Below are positions 24,070-33,293 of a stretch of 34,397 nucleotides of DNA, piece after piece. A program made the translations under genes and the position numbers. The notes below the pieces were generated by a model. The model searched no databases. It was not told where the DNA came from and was given only the letters and a program-made list of their open reading frames with translations. The stretch comes from a virus. How positions within the stretch are numbered: the first letter of the stretch is position 1; the number at the start of each line of letters is the position of its first letter. The DNA is taken from IMG/VR virus record IMGVR_UViG_3300033553_000802, positions 1 to 34,397 of that record. One strand, 5' to 3'.

Positions 24070-24783
24070 ATGAAACCGGCCATCTTTGGCGGCAATACCC
24101 CGCCGCTGCCGGCAGGGGTTTCGATCCGGGTCTACGTATCCGGCACCGTAACCCTCGCCACGATCTACGATTTTGACAGCGGTCTCGCCATCGATCAAAC
24201 CGGGCTGCCGTTTATCGCCGACGCCGACGGACGCTTTGCCTTTACCACGGATCCGGGGCAGATGGTTGATGTACAGATGGGCGGAGAGGGGAACACCGCA
24301 GATCTGTTGTTTAATGGCGGGGCGGCGCGATGGTTCAAGGCTTTCCCGATGGTGGACCCTACCGGATCTCATGCCGGAGATATCTCCTTTCACGCGGCGA
24401 GCTCCCCCCCGTCCGGTTGGCTTAAAGCGAACGGCGCAGCAGTCTCCAGGGCGACCTACGCCGCGCTGTTCGCGGCCATCGGGGCGACATTCGGGGTCGG
24501 AGATGGATCGACAACATTTAATTTGCCCGACTTGCGTGGAGAGTTCCTGCGCGGCTGGGATGATGGGCGAGGAGTGGACAGCGGCCGCGTGTTCGGCAGT
24601 GCACAAAGCCAGTCCATACAGTCCCATAACCACTTGATCCCGGTTACAGGCAGCACCGACGGCACCGACCCCAGGTTTTCATTTCTCGCCAACGACGGGA
24701 CAGCCGTGCTGACTACGGGACTGACCGGCAGCACGGAGACCCGCCCCCGCAACATTGCCCTGCTCGCCTGCATTAAATATTAG
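24070..24783 (+). CDS. Tail collar/fibre protein, 237 aa
   Basis: The C-terminal half is a phage tail collar domain: PSGWLKANGAAVSRATYAAL, FGVGDGSTTFNLPDLRGEFL, RGWDDGRGVDSGR, then SHNHLIP and ETRPRNIALLACIKY, the standard collar ending. The N-terminal 100 residues form a beta domain with FIADADGRFAF, which probably attaches it to the tail. It acts at the virion tip in host binding. The fibre assembly gene follows. Confidence 0.88.
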   Translation: MKPAIFGGNTPPLPAGVSIRVYVSGTVTLATIYDFDSGLAIDQTGLPFIADADGRFAFTTDPGQMVDVQMGGEGNTADLLFNGGAARWFKAFPMVDPTGSHAGDISFHAASSPPSGWLKANGAAVSRATYAALFAAIGATFGVGDGSTTFNLPDLRGEFLRGWDDGRGVDSGRVFGSAQSQSIQSHNHLIPVTGSTDGTDPRFSFLANDGTAVLTTGLTGSTETRPRNIALLACIKY

Positions 24784-24792
24784 GAGTCAACC

Positions 24793-25380
24793 ATGCAGAT
24801 ATACCATTATCACCCTCTCACCCGCGAACACCTCGGCAGCTCCCAAGCCGATCCCGACCCGCTCACCGAGGGAGGCTGGCTCGTTCCCGCCAATGCCACG
24901 ACCGATCCACCGCCAAAGGTCGGGCCGGATCAGGCCACCGTCTATGGCTCTGGTGAATGGCTACTGCTACCCGATTATCGCGGCAAAACCGCCTACGACA
25001 CCGCCACCAAGGCTGAAGTCTTGGTCGAGGACCTCGGCGAGTTACCAGCCGCGTTGACCCTGCTGCCCCCGGGCCGCGATGACACCTGGACTGGCTCTGC
25101 ATGGGCGCTCGATACCGAAGACAGAGACGCCCGAATCCAGAGGCAGCTAACTCAAGCCATTCAGACACTGCTGGATACCGAAGCCCAAAAGCATCGCTAC
25201 GATAACATCCACACCGCAGTCGGTTGGGCCGACTTGTTTGTAGACGCTGCCGCTCTAAAAACGTGGGGGGCTGCCTGTTGGATAACCTCCGGCGAGATCG
25301 AAGCCGAGGTCATGGCAGGCAACCGGGAGATCCCGACGGTTGCGGAACTGCTGGCCGCAATGCCGGTGTTTGGCGCGTAG
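24793..25380 (+). CDS. Tail fibre assembly protein, 195 aa
   Basis: Follows the collar/fibre gene, as chaperones of the Caudo_TAP type do. Signs are the start IYHYHPLTREHLG, the central PPGRDDTWTGSAWALDTED pattern of short turns, and the helical C-terminus (QLTQAIQTLLDTEAQKHRYD, WITSGEIEAEVMAGNREIPT) that resembles the DUF/gp38-type assembly factors. Preceded by AGGAG. Confidence 0.72.
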   Translation: MQIYHYHPLTREHLGSSQADPDPLTEGGWLVPANATTDPPPKVGPDQATVYGSGEWLLLPDYRGKTAYDTATKAEVLVEDLGELPAALTLLPPGRDDTWTGSAWALDTEDRDARIQRQLTQAIQTLLDTEAQKHRYDNIHTAVGWADLFVDAAALKTWGAACWITSGEIEAEVMAGNREIPTVAELLAAMPVFGA

Positions 25381-25407: not shown

Positions 25408-26091
25408 ATGTTTATATTTGAGGTACCAGGCGGCGAGGTCTCCGCAGCGGATACACAACAGCGCATCGCGGCGATCAAATCGACGCAGGTCGACTCAGCG
25501 CTCGAAATCTCACGCATCGAGGCGGCTCTGATTGATTCGGCAAGCCTCCTCTCACTGCTCGAAGACTCTCTGGCCGATACCACAACCACCCTCTCACACC
25601 TCGAAACAGCTCTAATTGATCCCGCGCTACACCTTCTGGTGCTCGAAACCGCCTCGACTGACACGCGCGTAGCCATCACCGCTCAAGAGGTCTTTCTGGT
25701 CGATACCCGCCTGGTTAACCCAGCCACCTTGTTTGTGCACGCCCTGGGCAGTGTATTATTCCCCTGGGCTCCTCAGCGCCCGCAACGTCGCCTCATCAGC
25801 CGAGCCCAGCTGCGAGATCGCGACTCGGCTGCAGCCTCTTACGTTTACGGCAAAAGCCTGACCGACCGCGCCGATCTGCAGCTGGTATTCCCGCGCGTCG
25901 ACACAGCAACCCTGCAGATCCTGCTAATTTGGGTACGCACCACCGTGCGCGGCACCGCTGAAACGTTTAACTGGATAGACCACAACAAAACCCAGCACAG
26001 TGCGCGCCTGCGCACGCCGCGCATTAGCCACCGCCAGACCGGCCCCGATCGACACCTGGTGGAGATCGATCTGCAAGAGGACCTGCCATGA
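25408..26091 (+). CDS. Minor tail protein with helical coiled repeats, 227 aa
   Basis: Preceded by GAGGAG. Residues about 20-95 carry repeated leucine/alanine/aspartate segments (ALIDSASLLSLLEDSLADTT and ALIDPALHLLVLETASTD) suggestive of a trimeric coiled coil. The second half is a beta-like domain (LVFPRVDTATLQILLIWVRT, TFNWIDHNKTQHSARLR, HLVEIDLQEDLP) that resembles tail-tip minor proteins. Overlaps the tail-tip gene by four bases. Confidence 0.6.
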   Translation: MFIFEVPGGEVSAADTQQRIAAIKSTQVDSALEISRIEAALIDSASLLSLLEDSLADTTTTLSHLETALIDPALHLLVLETASTDTRVAITAQEVFLVDTRLVNPATLFVHALGSVLFPWAPQRPQRRLISRAQLRDRDSAAASYVYGKSLTDRADLQLVFPRVDTATLQILLIWVRTTVRGTAETFNWIDHNKTQHSARLRTPRISHRQTGPDRHLVEIDLQEDLP

Positions 26092-28610
26092 AATCGCTCT
26101 CGTCAGGATATGCAGTAGAGTGCGCAAAGAAAACCGGCATCACGCCGCTGTGGATCCTCAAGCTCACGGTTGGGGGAACGGATTATTATCTCGGCGACAA
26201 CGCTCTGGCCATCCCAACCTGGCAGGGCGGCGTCAGCGTTTTGCCCTGGGTCACCTCGTGGGGCCAGTTCAGCGAAGGGATTACCGGAGAGCTTGGCGAG
26301 ATCCGCGTGGCCGATATCATTATCGAGACGATCATTGATCCGGACGCAACGCCAAACATGGACACGCTGGCCTCAACCGAAGGCATCGAGCAATCGCCCT
26401 GCTCGTTGTATCTGTGGTTCGCCGGGCTCAACCCTACCACCGACCCACCTCAAGAGTTTAGTCGATTCCATGTGCGCGACATCGATATCCCAGACGAAAC
26501 CATGGTGGTGCTCTCGCTCGAGGATGAGACCTTACGCCTTCGCCAACAGGTCGGCACCCGTGTCGATCGCACCAGCTACCCGGATGCCGATCCGGACGAC
26601 GTCGGCAAAGTCATACCGATGGTTTTTGGCAGCGTCTCCCGGTTGCCGGCCCTGGCCATTGATGCCGGGATGCAGACCAGCCTGCCGAACAATATAAACG
26701 CCGCCGCCACCAGTTTTGCTCTCTCCGATACCACTAGCTGGACGGTCGGCAAGGTTTTTCAGCTCGATAGCGAGCAGTGCTACATCAGTGGGATCTCTGG
26801 CGACACAGTCACCGTCACTCGCGGTTACAACACCACCGTGCCGGTGATCCATCTCAAAGGTGCGATCGCCTGGGAGATCAAGGACCGTTTTACTTATCTT
26901 GTCGCCGACCACGCCCTCGACCAGATCCCCAAGGTGCGCGGCCGGGTCGGACAGGCCGAAGTTGATGTCACCGCGATTGCCAGCCGTTATCTGGGCAGCG
27001 GGACATTCGCCCTGGTTGGCGCAGGAGTGGTCGGCGGACAGCATCCGGATTACCCGGGTAAAGCCTGCGTCACCCTCCCCGGCTATATCACCGTCGAGCA
27101 GGCGGTGGATCTACTGATCAGTGATGGCATCAATGTGGCCGACGCGATTGCCGTGGTCGACACCATTGCAGTTTCCGATACAATCGGCGTGAGCGATTCC
27201 ATTTCGGTTTACGACACGATCAACGTTTCCGACACAATCGGCGTGAGCGATGGTATCACTGTCAGCCAGGGCAACCACGCACACACCGGCTCGGCGCTGA
27301 GTACGGTCTGCCCGATCGACGATATCATTGCCGCAAGTGGCAGCTGGTTTATCCCAGCCGATGCGGCCATCGACGGAAATCTTAACACCGGCGGCATCGT
27401 CGAAAACGGCGCTTCCCATGCCGATACCAGGTTTAAGCGCACGCAGCCGTTCTCCCTTTCCGGTACGCCAATCCGTTACCGCTGGGTTTGGGTTACAGGG
27501 GATCCGGTCTATAGCGCCCCTCTCAAAGTGGGAGGGTCCAGCGTCGGTGGCGGCACTACCAAACGCACAGACTACGGCGTTTGGTTTAGCATCTCAACCT
27601 GGCCAAGCTTGACCGGAAAGTATATTGATGTCAGCGGATCAGGTGGTCGGTGCCGGGTCTGGGAGCTCTGGATCGAGGTCGAATACAGCTCAGGGACTAG
27701 TTCTACTCCAGCCACCGGCGTTGGTAAGTCCGGAACGGTTTACAAGTCTGGATCGGCCAGCAAGTCTGGATCGGTCAGCAAACTTGGATCGGCCAGCAAA
27801 ACAGGGGCAGCCAACAAAACGGGTGGCGCAAGCAAATCCGGCTCCGTATCGAAAACTGGAACCGTCACGCTCTCCGGAAACTCAACCGCTAACACCCTGA
27901 TTGGCGACGCCATCCTCTGCGATGTGGTGCGCACCAGCAGCATCGCCCAGACCTTTGACACCCTGCTCGCATTTGGTGGTTACGGCGCCGTCAGCGTCGC
28001 CGGGGCCTTCCCCGCTGGATATGCCTTAAATGGAGTCATCAACGCCAACAGGCCCCTGATCGAATGGCTCGACCTGCTCGCCTTTCAGTGCCGCGCCTAT
28101 TTCCGCATGCACTTAGGCCAGGGCCGTCTGATCGTGCGCCCGGACGCACTGACCAGCATCCGAACCATTCCGGCGGTCCGCCTCACCAATAACCACAAAG
28201 CCCACGCCCGCCGCAAGGTTGCGTATTCAGAAGTGGTTAATCGCATCAACCTGCTCTATGCCCGCGACTGGAGCGACGGCGGCGATAACGCCTATCAAAG
28301 CAACGCCGCGGTCGCAGACTCTGCCAGCATCGCCGTTTATGGCGAGCAGGAGCGCCCCGGTCTGTTTCAGTGCGATTTTATTACCAGCGAGGCCATGGCA
28401 GAGAGTCTGGCAGCGTTTTACCTGGCCCAACACAAAGACCGTCCCTGGCTGCACAGCTTTGAGGTGTTTCTCGATCATGCCGCCCTGGAATTTGCCGACG
28501 CCATCACCCTTGGCTTTGCCGGCGATCAGATCGGCGAGATCCAGCAGGCCCGATTTTCGCCGGGAGATACCACCCGCATGGATGTGATCGAGCTTGTGGT
28601 GAAAGTTTAA
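26088..28610 (+). CDS. Large tail-tip / receptor-contact protein with hexapeptide repeats, 840 aa
   Basis: The largest tail protein, encoded where lambda-like phages have their J or tip protein. Beta-rich N-terminal domain (LWILKLTVGGTDYYLGDN, FHVRDIDIPDETMVVLSLED, GKVIPMVFGSVSRLP), then a region with GYNTTVPVIHLKGAIAWEIK. Two low-complexity stretches follow: seven hexapeptides of the S-D-T-I-x-V type and eight of the K-S-G-x-x-S type. Between them is a discoidin-like segment (SGSWFIPADAAIDGNLNTGG, YIDVSGSGGRCRVWELWIEV). The C-terminal third (AFQCRAYFRMHLGQGRLIVR, ITLGFAGDQIGEIQQARFSP) ends like tail-hub proteins. The repeats probably form stalk-like or surface elements. Confidence 0.78.
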   Translation: MKSLSSGYAVECAKKTGITPLWILKLTVGGTDYYLGDNALAIPTWQGGVSVLPWVTSWGQFSEGITGELGEIRVADIIIETIIDPDATPNMDTLASTEGIEQSPCSLYLWFAGLNPTTDPPQEFSRFHVRDIDIPDETMVVLSLEDETLRLRQQVGTRVDRTSYPDADPDDVGKVIPMVFGSVSRLPALAIDAGMQTSLPNNINAAATSFALSDTTSWTVGKVFQLDSEQCYISGISGDTVTVTRGYNTTVPVIHLKGAIAWEIKDRFTYLVADHALDQIPKVRGRVGQAEVDVTAIASRYLGSGTFALVGAGVVGGQHPDYPGKACVTLPGYITVEQAVDLLISDGINVADAIAVVDTIAVSDTIGVSDSISVYDTINVSDTIGVSDGITVSQGNHAHTGSALSTVCPIDDIIAASGSWFIPADAAIDGNLNTGGIVENGASHADTRFKRTQPFSLSGTPIRYRWVWVTGDPVYSAPLKVGGSSVGGGTTKRTDYGVWFSISTWPSLTGKYIDVSGSGGRCRVWELWIEVEYSSGTSSTPATGVGKSGTVYKSGSASKSGSVSKLGSASKTGAANKTGGASKSGSVSKTGTVTLSGNSTANTLIGDAILCDVVRTSSIAQTFDTLLAFGGYGAVSVAGAFPAGYALNGVINANRPLIEWLDLLAFQCRAYFRMHLGQGRLIVRPDALTSIRTIPAVRLTNNHKAHARRKVAYSEVVNRINLLYARDWSDGGDNAYQSNAAVADSASIAVYGEQERPGLFQCDFITSEAMAESLAAFYLAQHKDRPWLHSFEVFLDHAALEFADAITLGFAGDQIGEIQQARFSPGDTTRMDVIELVVKV
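27138..27263 (+). repeat. Seven 18-bp in-frame repeats (x-D-x-I-x-V hexapeptides)
   Basis: Encode ADAIAV, VDTIAV, SDTIGV, SDSISV, YDTINV, SDTIGV and SDGITV in the tail-tip protein. DNA copies are diverged, but two are near-identical around ATCGGCGTGAGCGAT, so copy number could change by slippage or unequal recombination. Confidence 0.85.
27726..27869 (+). repeat. Eight 18-bp in-frame repeats (K-[ST/L]-G-x-x-x hexapeptides)
   Basis: Encode KSGTVY, KSGSAS, KSGSVS, KLGSAS, KTGAAN, KTGGAS, KSGSVS and KTGTVT in the tail-tip protein. Lys/Gly/Ser composition suggests a flexible or solenoid linker before the C-terminal domain. Confidence 0.85.
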
Positions 28611-29030: not shown

Positions 29031-29584
29031 TGCGGCGCTTTGGCGGCAGTAAAGACACAGTCAACCTGGCCAACCCGCCTGATCTGGTGATGCACAGGTT
29101 GACGGTGCAGGCTGATAATATGGCGATGCGGCTGCGGGATTTTGCGGCGACTTCAGTTTTCAACCTGGCCGCGCTGTTCGCCAATGGCGAGGTTGGTTTA
29201 TTTGCCGATATCCAGAAGCTCGATGCGCTCTGGCAGGAGGAGGCGATGACAACCCCTTCCGCAGTCGGCGATCCGGTCGGGATGATCGTTGATCAGAGCG
29301 GCACCGGTCATCATTTGCTCACCGCCACCAGCGGTCAAAAGCCGCTGCTGAGGCAGGATGCGTCCGGGCATTACTATCTGGAGAGCGACGGCGTGGACGA
29401 TAAGCTGGTGGCCACCTTTGCTGTGGCTCCTGGCGACTGCACGCTGGTGTTCGCCGGGCCAGACGAAATCACTATACGCACGATCACGGTCGGCACAACG
29501 TTCGAGCTGCACACAGGGCTATGTTACGGTCTGCTGCTGATCGATCGTCCGCTGATAAGCGCGGAACTGGGGAGCATATTATGA
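29030..29584 (+). CDS. Tail protein upstream of the DGR target, 184 aa
   Basis: Helical N-terminus (NLANPPDLVMHRLTVQADNM) with a region around LWQEEAMTTPSAVGDPVGMI and DQSGTGHHLLTATSGQKPLL, then YYLESDGVDDKLVATFAV. This resembles the LamG/concanavalin-like segments (DGVDD, PVG-IVDQSG-G-HL--A) found in phage fibre proteins. The start is coupled to the previous stop; the ATGA overlap with the DGR target implies stoichiometric expression, so it may be the adaptor that anchors the variable receptor-binding protein to the tail. Confidence 0.62.
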   Translation: MRRFGGSKDTVNLANPPDLVMHRLTVQADNMAMRLRDFAATSVFNLAALFANGEVGLFADIQKLDALWQEEAMTTPSAVGDPVGMIVDQSGTGHHLLTATSGQKPLLRQDASGHYYLESDGVDDKLVATFAVAPGDCTLVFAGPDEITIRTITVGTTFELHTGLCYGLLLIDRPLISAELGSIL

Positions 29585-30681
29585 GCACTCTGCGTCAATA
29601 TCTGGCTGGCCGCTGCGGCAAGCCGAATTACACTATTTTTACACCGGACCCGGATCGCGCCAAAGTTGAGGCCGCATCAGGTGGGCGCAACACGGTCATT
29701 TATGACGACCTTGGCCAGCCCTCCATTATGGTCCGTGTTGATCCGTTCAACTGCGAGGATGTTGCAGGGAGCTACGGCACAGGATTGCACCCTGCTTTTG
29801 AAGCGGGCAAGGAATACTGGGTCGCTAAATATCTTGGCAGCCTACTCAACGCCCGCGCGGTCTCCCTGCCCTCGCGTGACCCGGCGCACACCATCAATTT
29901 TGACGCCGCCATGACTGCCTGCCGCGCCAAGGGTGCTGGTTGGGATCTCATGCCTAACGGGCTATGGGCGGCACTGGCGATGACCAGCCGAGACAACAAC
30001 ACCATGCCCACCGGCAATAACTCATATGGGCGTGAATACAGCGATCTAACCCAACAGGGCATCCAGCAGGACTGGACCGCGCCAGGCAGCAATAATGGCC
30101 ACGATCGCACCCTGACCGGCTCTGGGCCATTGGCGTGGAGTCACGACGGCACGCCCTGGGGTGTGCGTGATCTCAACGGCAACGTCTGGGAGTGGGTTTC
30201 AGGCATGCGGTTAAACGATGGCGAGATCCAGGTGATGCTCGATCCATTTGGGGCTGATCACGGTGTGGCGTCAAGCGCATGGAAGGCGATTCTGCAGGAT
30301 GGTAGCCTGGTGACGCCGGGCACCGCTGATACGCTGAAATACGATATGACCAGCGCTGCTGGCGGGTCGAACGCAACCACTATCAACACGACGCTGATAA
30401 ACCAATCCGACGGCTCGACCTACTCATATGGGCCACTAGAAAGCGTATCGACTCTCGTCACGGTTCCGGACGTTCTCAAACAACTGGCGCTGTTCCCTGG
30501 TACCGCTGGCCTGGCCAACGACTACCTATATCAACGCAACGTCTCTGAGCGTTTTCCGTATCGTGGCGGCTATTGGCTCCGCACGAGCTATGCCGGGGTG
30601 TTCTCGTGCTACCTGTACTACCCGCGCTCGTACACGCTCACGAACATCGGTTTCCGCCCCGCTTTCGTTTCTGCAATCTGA
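29581..30681 (+). CDS. DGR target protein: FGE/C-type-lectin-fold receptor-binding protein, 366 aa
   Basis: The variable protein of the retroelement. After an N-terminal region of 100 residues it has the formylglycine-generating-enzyme/sulfatase-modifying-factor fold used as a C-type-lectin scaffold by many DGR targets: FDAAMTACRAKGAGWDLMPN, WGVRDLNGNVWEWVSGM (199-209), then a C-terminal FPYRGGYW...NIGFRPAF. The last 40 residues are coded by the VR. Residues differing from the TR are Y331, L333, R334, Y337, Y344, Y346, Y347, Y351 and L353; N355 is still template-like. Start ATG has GGGGAG upstream and overlaps the prior stop. Likely displayed at the tail tip for host binding, as Mtd is in phage BPP-1. 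Confidence 0.93.
   Translation: MSTLRQYLAGRCGKPNYTIFTPDPDRAKVEAASGGRNTVIYDDLGQPSIMVRVDPFNCEDVAGSYGTGLHPAFEAGKEYWVAKYLGSLLNARAVSLPSRDPAHTINFDAAMTACRAKGAGWDLMPNGLWAALAMTSRDNNTMPTGNNSYGREYSDLTQQGIQQDWTAPGSNNGHDRTLTGSGPLAWSHDGTPWGVRDLNGNVWEWVSGMRLNDGEIQVMLDPFGADHGVASSAWKAILQDGSLVTPGTADTLKYDMTSAAGGSNATTINTTLINQSDGSTYSYGPLESVSTLVTVPDVLKQLALFPGTAGLANDYLYQRNVSERFPYRGGYWLRTSYAGVFSCYLYYPRSYTLTNIGFRPAFVSAI
30545..30663 (+). repeat. DGR variable repeat (VR), 119 bp, with IMH at its 3' end
   Basis: Aligns base for base with the TR (offset 529). Twelve mismatches, all at TR adenines: A to T eight times, A to C three times, A to G once. The flanks (26 bp at the 5' end and the last 25 bp, GAACATCGGTTTCCGCCCCG region) are identical. 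The invariant 3' GC-rich part corresponds to the initiation-of-mutagenic-homing site. Confidence 0.97.
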
Positions 30682-30699
30682 TCAACTGATATCTGGGGG

Positions 30700-30715
30700 C
30701 CGGGCGATAGCCCGG
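30700..30715 (+). promoter_or_regulatory. DGR target-recognition hairpin/cruciform, GATA tetraloop
   Basis: CCGGGC-GATA-GCCCGG: a perfect 6-bp stem (seven with an outer G-T pair) 37 bp after the end of the VR. Hairpins with a four-base GRNA loop downstream of VR are needed for efficient retrohoming in the Bordetella phage DGR; GATA fits GRNA. Position and loop match that role. Confidence 0.8.
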
Positions 30716-30725
30716 TGGTTATGGT

Positions 30726-31073
30726 TTGGACGATTTATTGATCAGGCAAAAGATTGAAGGGGTAATCCAGTACGGCTACATCGCCCTGCGGCAGTTCCCG
30801 AAATCGGAGCGCCACGTGCTCTCGCAGGAGCTGCGCCAGACCATGTGGGAGCTGTTGCGCCTGGTGATTGTCTGCAACCACCGTTATCACAAAAAGACCA
30901 CCATGCAGGATCTCGATGCCACCCTCGATTTGCTGCGCAGTCAGATCCGGTTGGCCAAAGATCTGGAGTTTTTATCATTTAAGAAGTACGAAGTGTGGAG
31001 CAGGATGGTGGACGAGTGCGGCCGGATGATCGGCGGCTGGTACAAAAGCCTGCGCACAGGAGGGCCGGGTTAA
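30726..31073 (+). CDS. avd: DGR accessory variability determinant (Avd), 115 aa
   Basis: A small four-helix-bundle protein that forms a basic pentamer and binds the reverse transcriptase and TR RNA. Landmarks are IEGVIQYGYIALRQFPKSER, HVLSQELRQTMWELLRLVIV, the basic NHRYHKKTT, LDATLDLLRSQIRLAKDLEF and SFKKYEVWSRMVDECGRMIG. The first codon is TTG; no ATG lies in frame near the N-terminus. Its stop codon abuts the TR, the same order as target, avd, TR, RT in the Bordetella phage. Without Avd, mutagenic reverse transcription does not occur in characterised DGRs. Confidence 0.9.
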   Translation: MDDLLIRQKIEGVIQYGYIALRQFPKSERHVLSQELRQTMWELLRLVIVCNHRYHKKTTMQDLDATLDLLRSQIRLAKDLEFLSFKKYEVWSRMVDECGRMIGGWYKSLRTGGPG

Positions 31074-31192
31074 CTGAGCGTTTTCCGTATCGTGGCGGCA
31101 ATTGGAACAACACGAGCAATGCCGGGGTGTTCTCGTGCAACCTGAACAACCCGCGCTCGAACACGAACACGAACATCGGTTTCCGCCCCGCT
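31074..31192 (+). repeat. DGR template repeat (TR), 119 bp
   Basis: Unmutated master copy of the VR, starting right after the avd stop. Contains 27 adenines, mostly in ten AAC/AAT codons positioned at the variable residues. NNC/NNT randomisation of such codons gives 15 amino acids and never a stop. Non-coding as placed; it is transcribed into the RNA that the RT copies with adenine errors. Confidence 0.97.
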
Positions 31193-31347
31193 CTTGGCGA
31201 TAGCCAGAAGCATGGCCCTTACTTGGGGGCCGTGCCAGTGCACCATCAAAAGGACCCGGCAATCCTTGGCCAGTGGCCAGAACATGAACAGGCCCTGGCG
31301 GGACAGTAGGTTGGTTCGAACCCTCGCCAGGGCCGCCCAAGGTAAAT
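31193..31347 (+). ncRNA. DGR spacer RNA between TR and RT, three hairpins
   Basis: Part of the TR transcript that should prime and anchor cDNA synthesis in a DGR. Visible pairings: TGGC-GATA-GCCA at 31195-31206; a 9-bp stem (one G-T pair) at 31210-31218 with 31227-31235, 8-nt loop; and a perfect 10-bp stem GGCCCTGGCG (31291-31300) with CGCCAGGGCC (31325-31334). The last ends 13 nt before the RT start. Length (155 nt) is close to the 140-nt essential spacer of the Bordetella phage system. Confidence 0.6.
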
Positions 31348-32385
31348 ATGGCCAAGACATACAAAAATATCTATCCACACATCTACGCTTTCGACGCCCT
31401 GCACGCTGCCTACCGCCGCGCCCGCAAGGGACATCGCGGCTGCCGGGAGATTCTGCGTTTCGAGCAGGAGCTGGAAAGCAACCTGATCCAACTGCAAAAC
31501 GAACTGATCTGGGGCACCTACCGCACCGGGACATACCGCTATTTTGAGATCCTTGAGCCGAAAAAACGCCTGGTGGCAGCCCTGCCGTTTCGTGATCGCG
31601 TGGTGCAGCACGCCTTGGTCGCCGCCATCGAGCCTATATGGGAGCGACGCTTTATCAGCGACAGTTATGCTTGCCGCATCGGTCGCGGTATGCACACCGG
31701 AGCCAACCAGGCACAGCGCTTTTTAAGACAGGTCAAGCGCCAGCACGGCAAGGTCTATGTCTATAAAGCTGATATTGCCAAGTATTTCGCCAGCATCGAT
31801 CATGCGGTCCTTGCGGGCTTGTTGCAAAAACACGTCGCTTGCCGAAAAACTTTAACGCTGATCCACGAGATCATCGACTCAAGCGGCGGGCGGTCCGGCA
31901 TTCCGATCGGCAACCTGACCAGCCAACTGTTTGCCAACATCTATCTGCATGAGCTGGATGTGTTCGTCAAGAACACGTTGCGAGAAAAGCGCTATATCCG
32001 CTACATGGACGATACGGTCATCGTTCATCACGACAAGCGCCACCTCAAAGAGATCCGCACGCAGATCGAGGTGTTTCTTGAAAGCCGCCTGAAACTGCAA
32101 ACCAACAGCAAAAGCCAGATCTACCCGGTGGCCATGCTCTGCGGCCGGCCGCTGGATTTTTTGGGCTATCGCATCTGGACAACCCACCGCCGCCTGCGTA
32201 AGTCGAGCGTCAACCGCATGCGCCGCAGCTTGAAAACCATGGTCCGCCAGTACGCCAAAGGCGACATCTCGATTGAGAAGATAAAACTACGCATCGCGTC
32301 CTGGTTGGGTCATGCCAAACACGCCGACTCCTTCCGGATCCGCGCCAAACTACTTAATCACACAATCTTCAGGAGGACCACATGA
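31348..32385 (+). CDS. DGR reverse transcriptase, 345 aa
   Basis: Copies the TR RNA into cDNA with errors at adenines. The polymerase core is intact: KADIAKYFASID (motif A, D142), GIPIGNLTSQLFANIYL with the SQ residues (192-193) that distinguish DGR RTs from group II intron enzymes, and RYMDDTVIVH (catalytic Y219-M-D221-D222). FLGYR (271-275) is the conserved motif after the catalytic loop, followed by a helical thumb. No maturase or endonuclease domain. Length is typical (about 330-380). Start ATG follows AAGG at seven bases. Overlaps the next gene (ATGA). Confidence 0.97.
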   Translation: MAKTYKNIYPHIYAFDALHAAYRRARKGHRGCREILRFEQELESNLIQLQNELIWGTYRTGTYRYFEILEPKKRLVAALPFRDRVVQHALVAAIEPIWERRFISDSYACRIGRGMHTGANQAQRFLRQVKRQHGKVYVYKADIAKYFASIDHAVLAGLLQKHVACRKTLTLIHEIIDSSGGRSGIPIGNLTSQLFANIYLHELDVFVKNTLREKRYIRYMDDTVIVHHDKRHLKEIRTQIEVFLESRLKLQTNSKSQIYPVAMLCGRPLDFLGYRIWTTHRRLRKSSVNRMRRSLKTMVRQYAKGDISIEKIKLRIASWLGHAKHADSFRIRAKLLNHTIFRRTT

Positions 32386-32771
32386 GCTGGCCACACCGCG
32401 TACAAATGATCGTGCCAATTGCCCTGATCGACACCGCCAACGCCATCGGCCGCGCCCTCGATCCCGACGCCGGCGGCGACAAAACCTTTTCCATTCCGCT
32501 GCCGGATGCCGCCAACCCCACGCACTACGGCGCCTCCACCGCCGCCGCGGAGAGCTTTGTGCAGACCATCCAGGCGGTCATGGCTGGACATATCTCCCTG
32601 GCCGACGCCGTAGCCGCCGACTACGCCCAACGCTGGCCCGGCATCACCCCACCGACCGCAGAGCAGTGCGCTGCGTTTATCGATCAGGCCACCATCCGCA
32701 TCAACGTGCCCTGGAATGATGTGTTGGTTGAGACGGGTTTGATGGTGGGGGCTGCTGAGGAAGCGTTCTGA
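32382..32771 (+). CDS. Hypothetical protein co-transcribed with the DGR RT, 129 aa
   Basis: ATG overlaps the RT stop with AGGAGG upstream, so it is translated together with the RT. Ala/Pro-rich soluble protein (VQMIVPIALIDTANAIGRAL, then a DPDAGGDKTFSIPLPDAANP segment and IDQATIRINVPWNDVLVETG). No cysteines other than one, no membrane helix. Not a known DGR component; probably a phage structural or accessory gene. Function unknown. Confidence 0.65.
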   Translation: MSWPHRVQMIVPIALIDTANAIGRALDPDAGGDKTFSIPLPDAANPTHYGASTAAAESFVQTIQAVMAGHISLADAVAADYAQRWPGITPPTAEQCAAFIDQATIRINVPWNDVLVETGLMVGAAEEAF

Positions 32772-33238: not shown

Positions 33239-33293
33239 TGGTGCCGAAGGGGAGATTCGAACTCCCACGTCCATACGGACACTAGACCCTGAA
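33239..33293 (-). other. Attachment-site core: 3' part of tRNA-Leu(CAG)
   Basis: On the minus strand the sequence runs from the anticodon loop (TTCAGGG, anticodon CAG), through the 3' anticodon stem and the long class II variable arm (GTGTCCGTATGGACGT), to the T arm (GGGAGTTCGAATCTCCC) and the acceptor end with CCA. The 5' half of a tRNA is absent, since the preceding bases do not pair as CTAGA. A tRNA 3' end next to a tyrosine integrase is the usual phage attachment core. Lies 16 bp past the int stop. Confidence 0.85.

Follow-up and report, generated by a model that had tools for sequence, protein, structure and literature searches.

The question raised by this locus is whether an imperfect repeat beside a reverse transcriptase (RT) gene belongs to a complete diversity-generating retroelement (DGR) of a tailed phage, and how constantly such a mutator accompanies its target gene among related phages. 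The DNA analysed in the current study (the window) comprises positions 1-34,397 of the IMG/VR record IMGVR_UViG_3300033553_000802, a 34.4-kb virus record. Besides the DGR, it carries genes for a primase, terminase, portal, capsid, tail tube, tape measure, collar-type tail fibre, fibre-assembly protein, large tail protein and tyrosine integrase. The tail-tube gene matched PF18906 and the tape measure gene matched PhageMin_Tail. No contractile sheath gene was matched among the window ORFs scanned, which makes it likely that the phage is a siphophage, as it had been labelled in a sequence-only reading, in a record that may be incomplete. The contig end coincides exactly with the start codon of the integrase gene, indicating that part of the genome may be missing.

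The large tail (tail-tip) gene lies at 26088-28610 and is separated from the DGR target by two small genes. On the other side of the element, a stretch resembling the 3' half of a tRNA (about 33240-33270, minus strand) adjoins the integrase gene and is likely the prophage attachment site, as expected in this position. The nearest RTs in cellular genomes were those of a Geobacteraceae MAG (71%) and a Desulfuromonas MAG (64-65%), suggesting that the host probably belongs to the class containing both groups.

The cassette occupies 29581-32385 on the plus strand, in the order target gene with C-terminal VR, GATA hairpin, avd, TR, spacer RNA and RT gene. This is the arrangement that had been read from the letters alone; every part was found, none had been wrongly named, and all of them fall into known families. 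The target gene (29581..30681, 366 aa) encodes an FGE-type variable protein with a C-type-lectin fold. Its ATG overlaps the upstream stop codon as ATGA, and the program-made ORF list starts the frame 60 nt earlier, at 29521. The protein matched phrog_2889 (E 6e-121), the Pfam FGE-sulfatase family PF03781 (E 9e-6) and TaqVP (PDB 5VF4, E 1.5e-72), the last over residues 19-363 with the VR included. The VR is placed in the 3' end of a protein-coding target whose scaffold is known for DGR targets.

The VR (30545..30663) and the TR (31074..31192, beginning right after the avd stop codon) both lie on the plus strand and align without gaps over 119 nt. A recount gave the same numbers as those first reported, i.e. 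12 mismatches, every one at a TR adenine (8 A>T, 3 A>C and 1 A>G). With 27 A among the 119 TR bases, the probability that 12 random mismatches all fall on A is 1.8e-9. Codon comparison also returned the earlier count, with nine of the ten Asn codons of the TR altered in the VR and all other codons intact. No second VR or TR was found elsewhere in the window. Tyr replaced Asn at six of the nine altered codons, the highest Tyr share among the loci compared; the P of about 0.006 against the pooled rate holds for this locus alone and, as a post hoc value among many loci, carries little weight.

Downstream of the VR, the DNA can fold into a 7-bp hairpin with a GATA loop (30699..30716, plus strand; GCCGGGC-GATA-GCCCGGT), the putative homing hairpin or cruciform. 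It conforms to the published rule of GC-rich stems of 7-10 bp with GRNA loops (PMC3240598), and both DGR homing signals, the GC-rich VR end and the downstream hairpin, are present. Hairpins of at least 6 bp, mostly with GRNA loops, were detected after the VR in 44 of 58 related loci, compared with 11 of 58 shuffled controls.

The avd gene (accessory variability determinant; 30726..31073, plus strand) starts with TTG and encodes 115 aa. Its product matched the NCBIfam equivalog NF033474 above the cut-off (E 2.6e-36), as well as PF22296 (bAvd, E 1.6e-32) and phrog_3206. Between the TR and the RT gene lies a spacer of 155 nt (31193..31347, plus strand), a part of the DGR RNA that had been described as structured. 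This description is supported by the folding energy (-69.4 kcal/mol, z -2.9) and by strong covariation, since 19 of 36 pairs showed a double compensatory change across eight loci. None of 500 shuffles was equally good, and the signal collapsed when the partner was slid by one base.

The Rfam family RF02921 (RT-14 RNA) matched 31191-31334 in a permissive scan of the spacer alone (54.3 bits, gathering score 48.1); a default scan of the whole window gave no match. With this score above the gathering value, the spacer was no longer considered a candidate for an undescribed RNA. A covariance model built from the eight spacer loci (model R1) detected the spacer immediately downstream of the TR at about 35 additional DGR loci, and no match to it was obtained in the cassette-less target loci searched. 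The model also ties the RF02921 spacer to those of many other DGR loci, at most a minority of which were themselves scored against this Rfam family.

At least 39 loci share the cassette architecture of the window. Pooled over 58 TR/VR pairs, 718 of 1428 TR adenines (half) were changed versus 24 of 5341 other bases (0.4%). Only pairs with 80% or more of their mismatches at A were counted, which partly explains the low rate at other bases but not the size of the adenine rate. VR variation in related genomes was almost wholly limited to TR-adenine positions, as the sequence-only reading had led us to expect. The TR of a sister phage (L025) is identical to that of the window at 116 of 119 positions and keeps all 27 A. 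Its VR carries 17 changes, all at A, in a set different from that of the window.

At another locus (L024), the VR is identical to the window TR at 90 of 92 non-adenine positions and the rest of the target at 739 of 964, a contrast expected if the VR is overwritten from a conserved TR. An exact search with a 24-base string covering the 3' end of the TR and the start of the spacer matched no other viral contig, and the same search with the 5' end retrieved the sister phage only, so that these searches yielded no near-identical genome for a comparison of VRs within one population. As a statement about history, the proposal that the element has been active in this lineage is supported by the adenine-confined differences in the window and its relatives and the independent VR of the sister phage.

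The RT gene (31348..32385, plus strand) encodes 345 aa with YMDD and LTSQ (LTSQLFANIY) motifs, and its product matched phrog_1423 (E 4e-137). As an alternative origin, we considered the chance proximity of a group II intron or retron RT to a duplicated gene end, with VR and TR as an ordinary duplication. The RT does match Pfam RVT_1, and its best NCBIfam match is a group II intron RT model, far under the cut-off (146.6 vs 300 bits); the St85 retron model reached 56.9 bits against a cut-off of 235. By far the best solved relative, however, was chain A of PDB 8UB7 (E 4e-64, vs 1.3e-21 for a group II RT), which we take to be the bRT of Bordetella phage BPP-1, and the partner chain in this entry is named Avd.

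In a tree of 45 RTs, the window RT grouped with the DGR RTs, and the group II intron RTs formed a clade of their own with a 100/100 split, which is the outcome that the sequence-only reading had anticipated. One distant match to a retron model had a very long branch in this tree and was disregarded. Moreover, Avd is encoded next to the RT, and an ordinary duplication does not account for differences that are all at the adenines of one copy. On the basis of the tree and the substitution pattern this origin was ruled out, and we give it practically no probability.

The element is almost certainly a canonical phage DGR with a complete cassette, of the TaqVP and BPP-1 kind, because all parts match DGR families, the RT groups with DGR RTs and the TR/VR differences are confined to adenines. 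The points against this reading are the TTG start of avd, the contig end at the integrase gene and the group II model as best NCBIfam match of the RT. The anatomy, the adenine-specific pattern, the family of every part and the independent rewriting in relatives are observed here. By analogy with studied DGRs, a complex of RT and Avd would bind an RNA that runs from the last part of avd through the TR and spacer, and reverse transcription of the TR would introduce errors at adenines into the cDNA. This cDNA would then take the place of the VR in the 3' end of the target gene, guided by the GC-rich VR end and the downstream GATA hairpin, while the TR itself would stay unchanged. In this way the phage population would gain variants of the binding surface of the target.

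The same analogy suggests that the DGR may be active at present. A formerly active element could have fallen silent with its sequence intact, lacking expression or homing and with the VR fixed, and relatives with partial or missing cassettes demonstrate that loss of function does occur. Against this, the reading frames of Avd and RT are open and undamaged, the hairpin and spacer RNA are intact and the TR shares all 27 adenines with the sister phage. Non-adenine differences between VR and TR, which would mark a long rest, number zero. A silent element is therefore considered rather unlikely.

As to the product that is diversified, the target is probably a tail-associated adhesin or receptor-binding protein, judging from its homology to TaqVP and to annotated phage antireceptors and from its position in the tail module. 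It might instead be a non-adhesin, e.g. a lysogenic conversion protein, in which case the DGR would diversify something other than host binding. The location of target and cassette at the end of the tail genes, close to the integrase gene, would suit such a function, Pfam detects only an FGE-like domain in the protein, and the phage has a separate collar-type tail fibre with its assembly gene (24070-25380). On the other hand, the target is joined to its upstream gene by the ATGA overlap, downstream of tail genes. Moreover, its homologue in Pseudoalteromonas ACA phages is annotated as an antireceptor, there called a homologue of an antireceptor of phage VHML, and is placed among tail genes in both phages. 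A role outside host binding is for these reasons judged unlikely, and a receptor-binding function is favoured. The fibre and assembly genes at 24070-25380 may also mean that the phage has two host-recognition systems.

The closest known system is that of the sister phage, an uncultivated phage (IMGVR_UViG_3300037722_000865, loci L002/L025) that agrees with the window in the order and spacing of all parts. Its RT is 80% and its target 78% identical, the TR matches at the 116 of 119 positions given above, and it has the GATA hairpin and an RT-14 spacer. It differs from the window in its independently rewritten VR (17 adenine changes) and in the order of other genes of the tail region. The DGR of a Thermus aquaticus prophage, whose variable protein is TaqVP (PMC6328139), likewise has a single-domain FGE-type lectin-fold target with the VR at the C-terminus, followed by avd, TR and RT. 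It differs in host and sequence, and was compared through the target protein alone (E 1.5e-72).

The DGR of Bordetella phage BPP-1 (mtd, avd, TR, brt) shares the order target-VR-hairpin-avd-TR-spacer-RT, adenine mutagenesis and a position close to the attachment end of a temperate phage. Its RT is only 38.7% identical, however, and its spacer belongs to RF03022 (Phage_DGR), unlike the RF02921 spacer of the window; model R1 fails on BPP-1. BPP-1 is a podovirus. In Vibrio phages VHML and VP585 and Pseudoalteromonas phages ACA1 and ACA2, a target of the same family is found with avd, TR and RT in the tail module. These phages are P2-like with contractile tails, unlike the probable siphophage of the window, and the RT is about 50% identical in ACA1 and VP585. 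ACA1 and ACA2 differ chiefly in the VR (PMC10612066). More than 30,000 DGRs have already been catalogued (PMC8144416). The cassette is widespread and well studied, reportedly also in phages of siphovirus morphology (PMC8143477), and the window adds one clean, complete example.

The cassette is not always present beside this target. Among the 80 closest target loci on viral contigs, a full cassette lay downstream of 39 and a partial cassette downstream of five. At 13 loci, 1.9 kb or more of downstream sequence contained no cassette, and the rest were cut by contig ends. Two of the 13 cassette-less loci (L078 and L079) are on the same contig as a cassette-bearing target (L039 and L092) and match its TR, indicating that they are second targets. 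At L024 (2385-3900), the target is 85% identical, and the locus lacks the hairpin, avd, TR, spacer and RT altogether. The counterpart of the window gene downstream of the RT comes about 20 nt after the target stop codon. The VR of this locus differs from the window TR at 20 of 27 adenines and at 2 of 92 other positions, and the homing end is intact, on a record of only 12 kb. The same record carries a terminase-like ORF of 813 aa (L024:5696-8137), the N-terminal part of which looks interrupted by an intein-like stretch.

At L026 (5001-6560), the target is 75% identical and has an adenine-rewritten VR with a more degraded end; no hairpin, avd, TR or RT lies alongside, and no RT was found on the 57-kb contig. 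Here too the target is almost contiguous with the gene found downstream of the RT in the window. This gene (32382..32771, plus strand) encodes 129 aa of unassigned function and is also present in L002, L005, L006 and L015. It comes after the target module with or without the DGR block, adjoining the target in both cassette-less loci, L024 and L026.

Only a C-terminal or short piece of the RT follows the target at L031 (6059-6314) and in Vibrio phage pYD38-B (L152:5051-5194). Partial cassettes, consisting of an RT piece only or of avd without a full RT, follow it at L098, L075, L043 and L061, which suggests decay of the mutator block. Klebsiella phage Kp4871-1 (L150:3941-5089) has a target of the same family, and the 1.7 kb remaining downstream contained neither an RT or avd gene nor a TR/VR repeat.

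Taken with L024 and L026, which lack the block, such remnants make repeated loss of the mutator module the simplest reading of these sequences. It is also conceivable, albeit very improbable, that hairpin, avd, TR and RT form a separable module, and that a DGR at another place in the host cell acts in trans to diversify the VR of phages like L024. A literature search that covered few subscription journals returned nothing on phage targets that have lost the adjoining DGR block.

Close relatives that share one target gene but differ in having the mutator block could indicate under which conditions targeted hypermutation is retained by phages and under which a single binding surface is fixed. 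The DGR of the window is of more use as one side of this comparison than as a further example of its kind.
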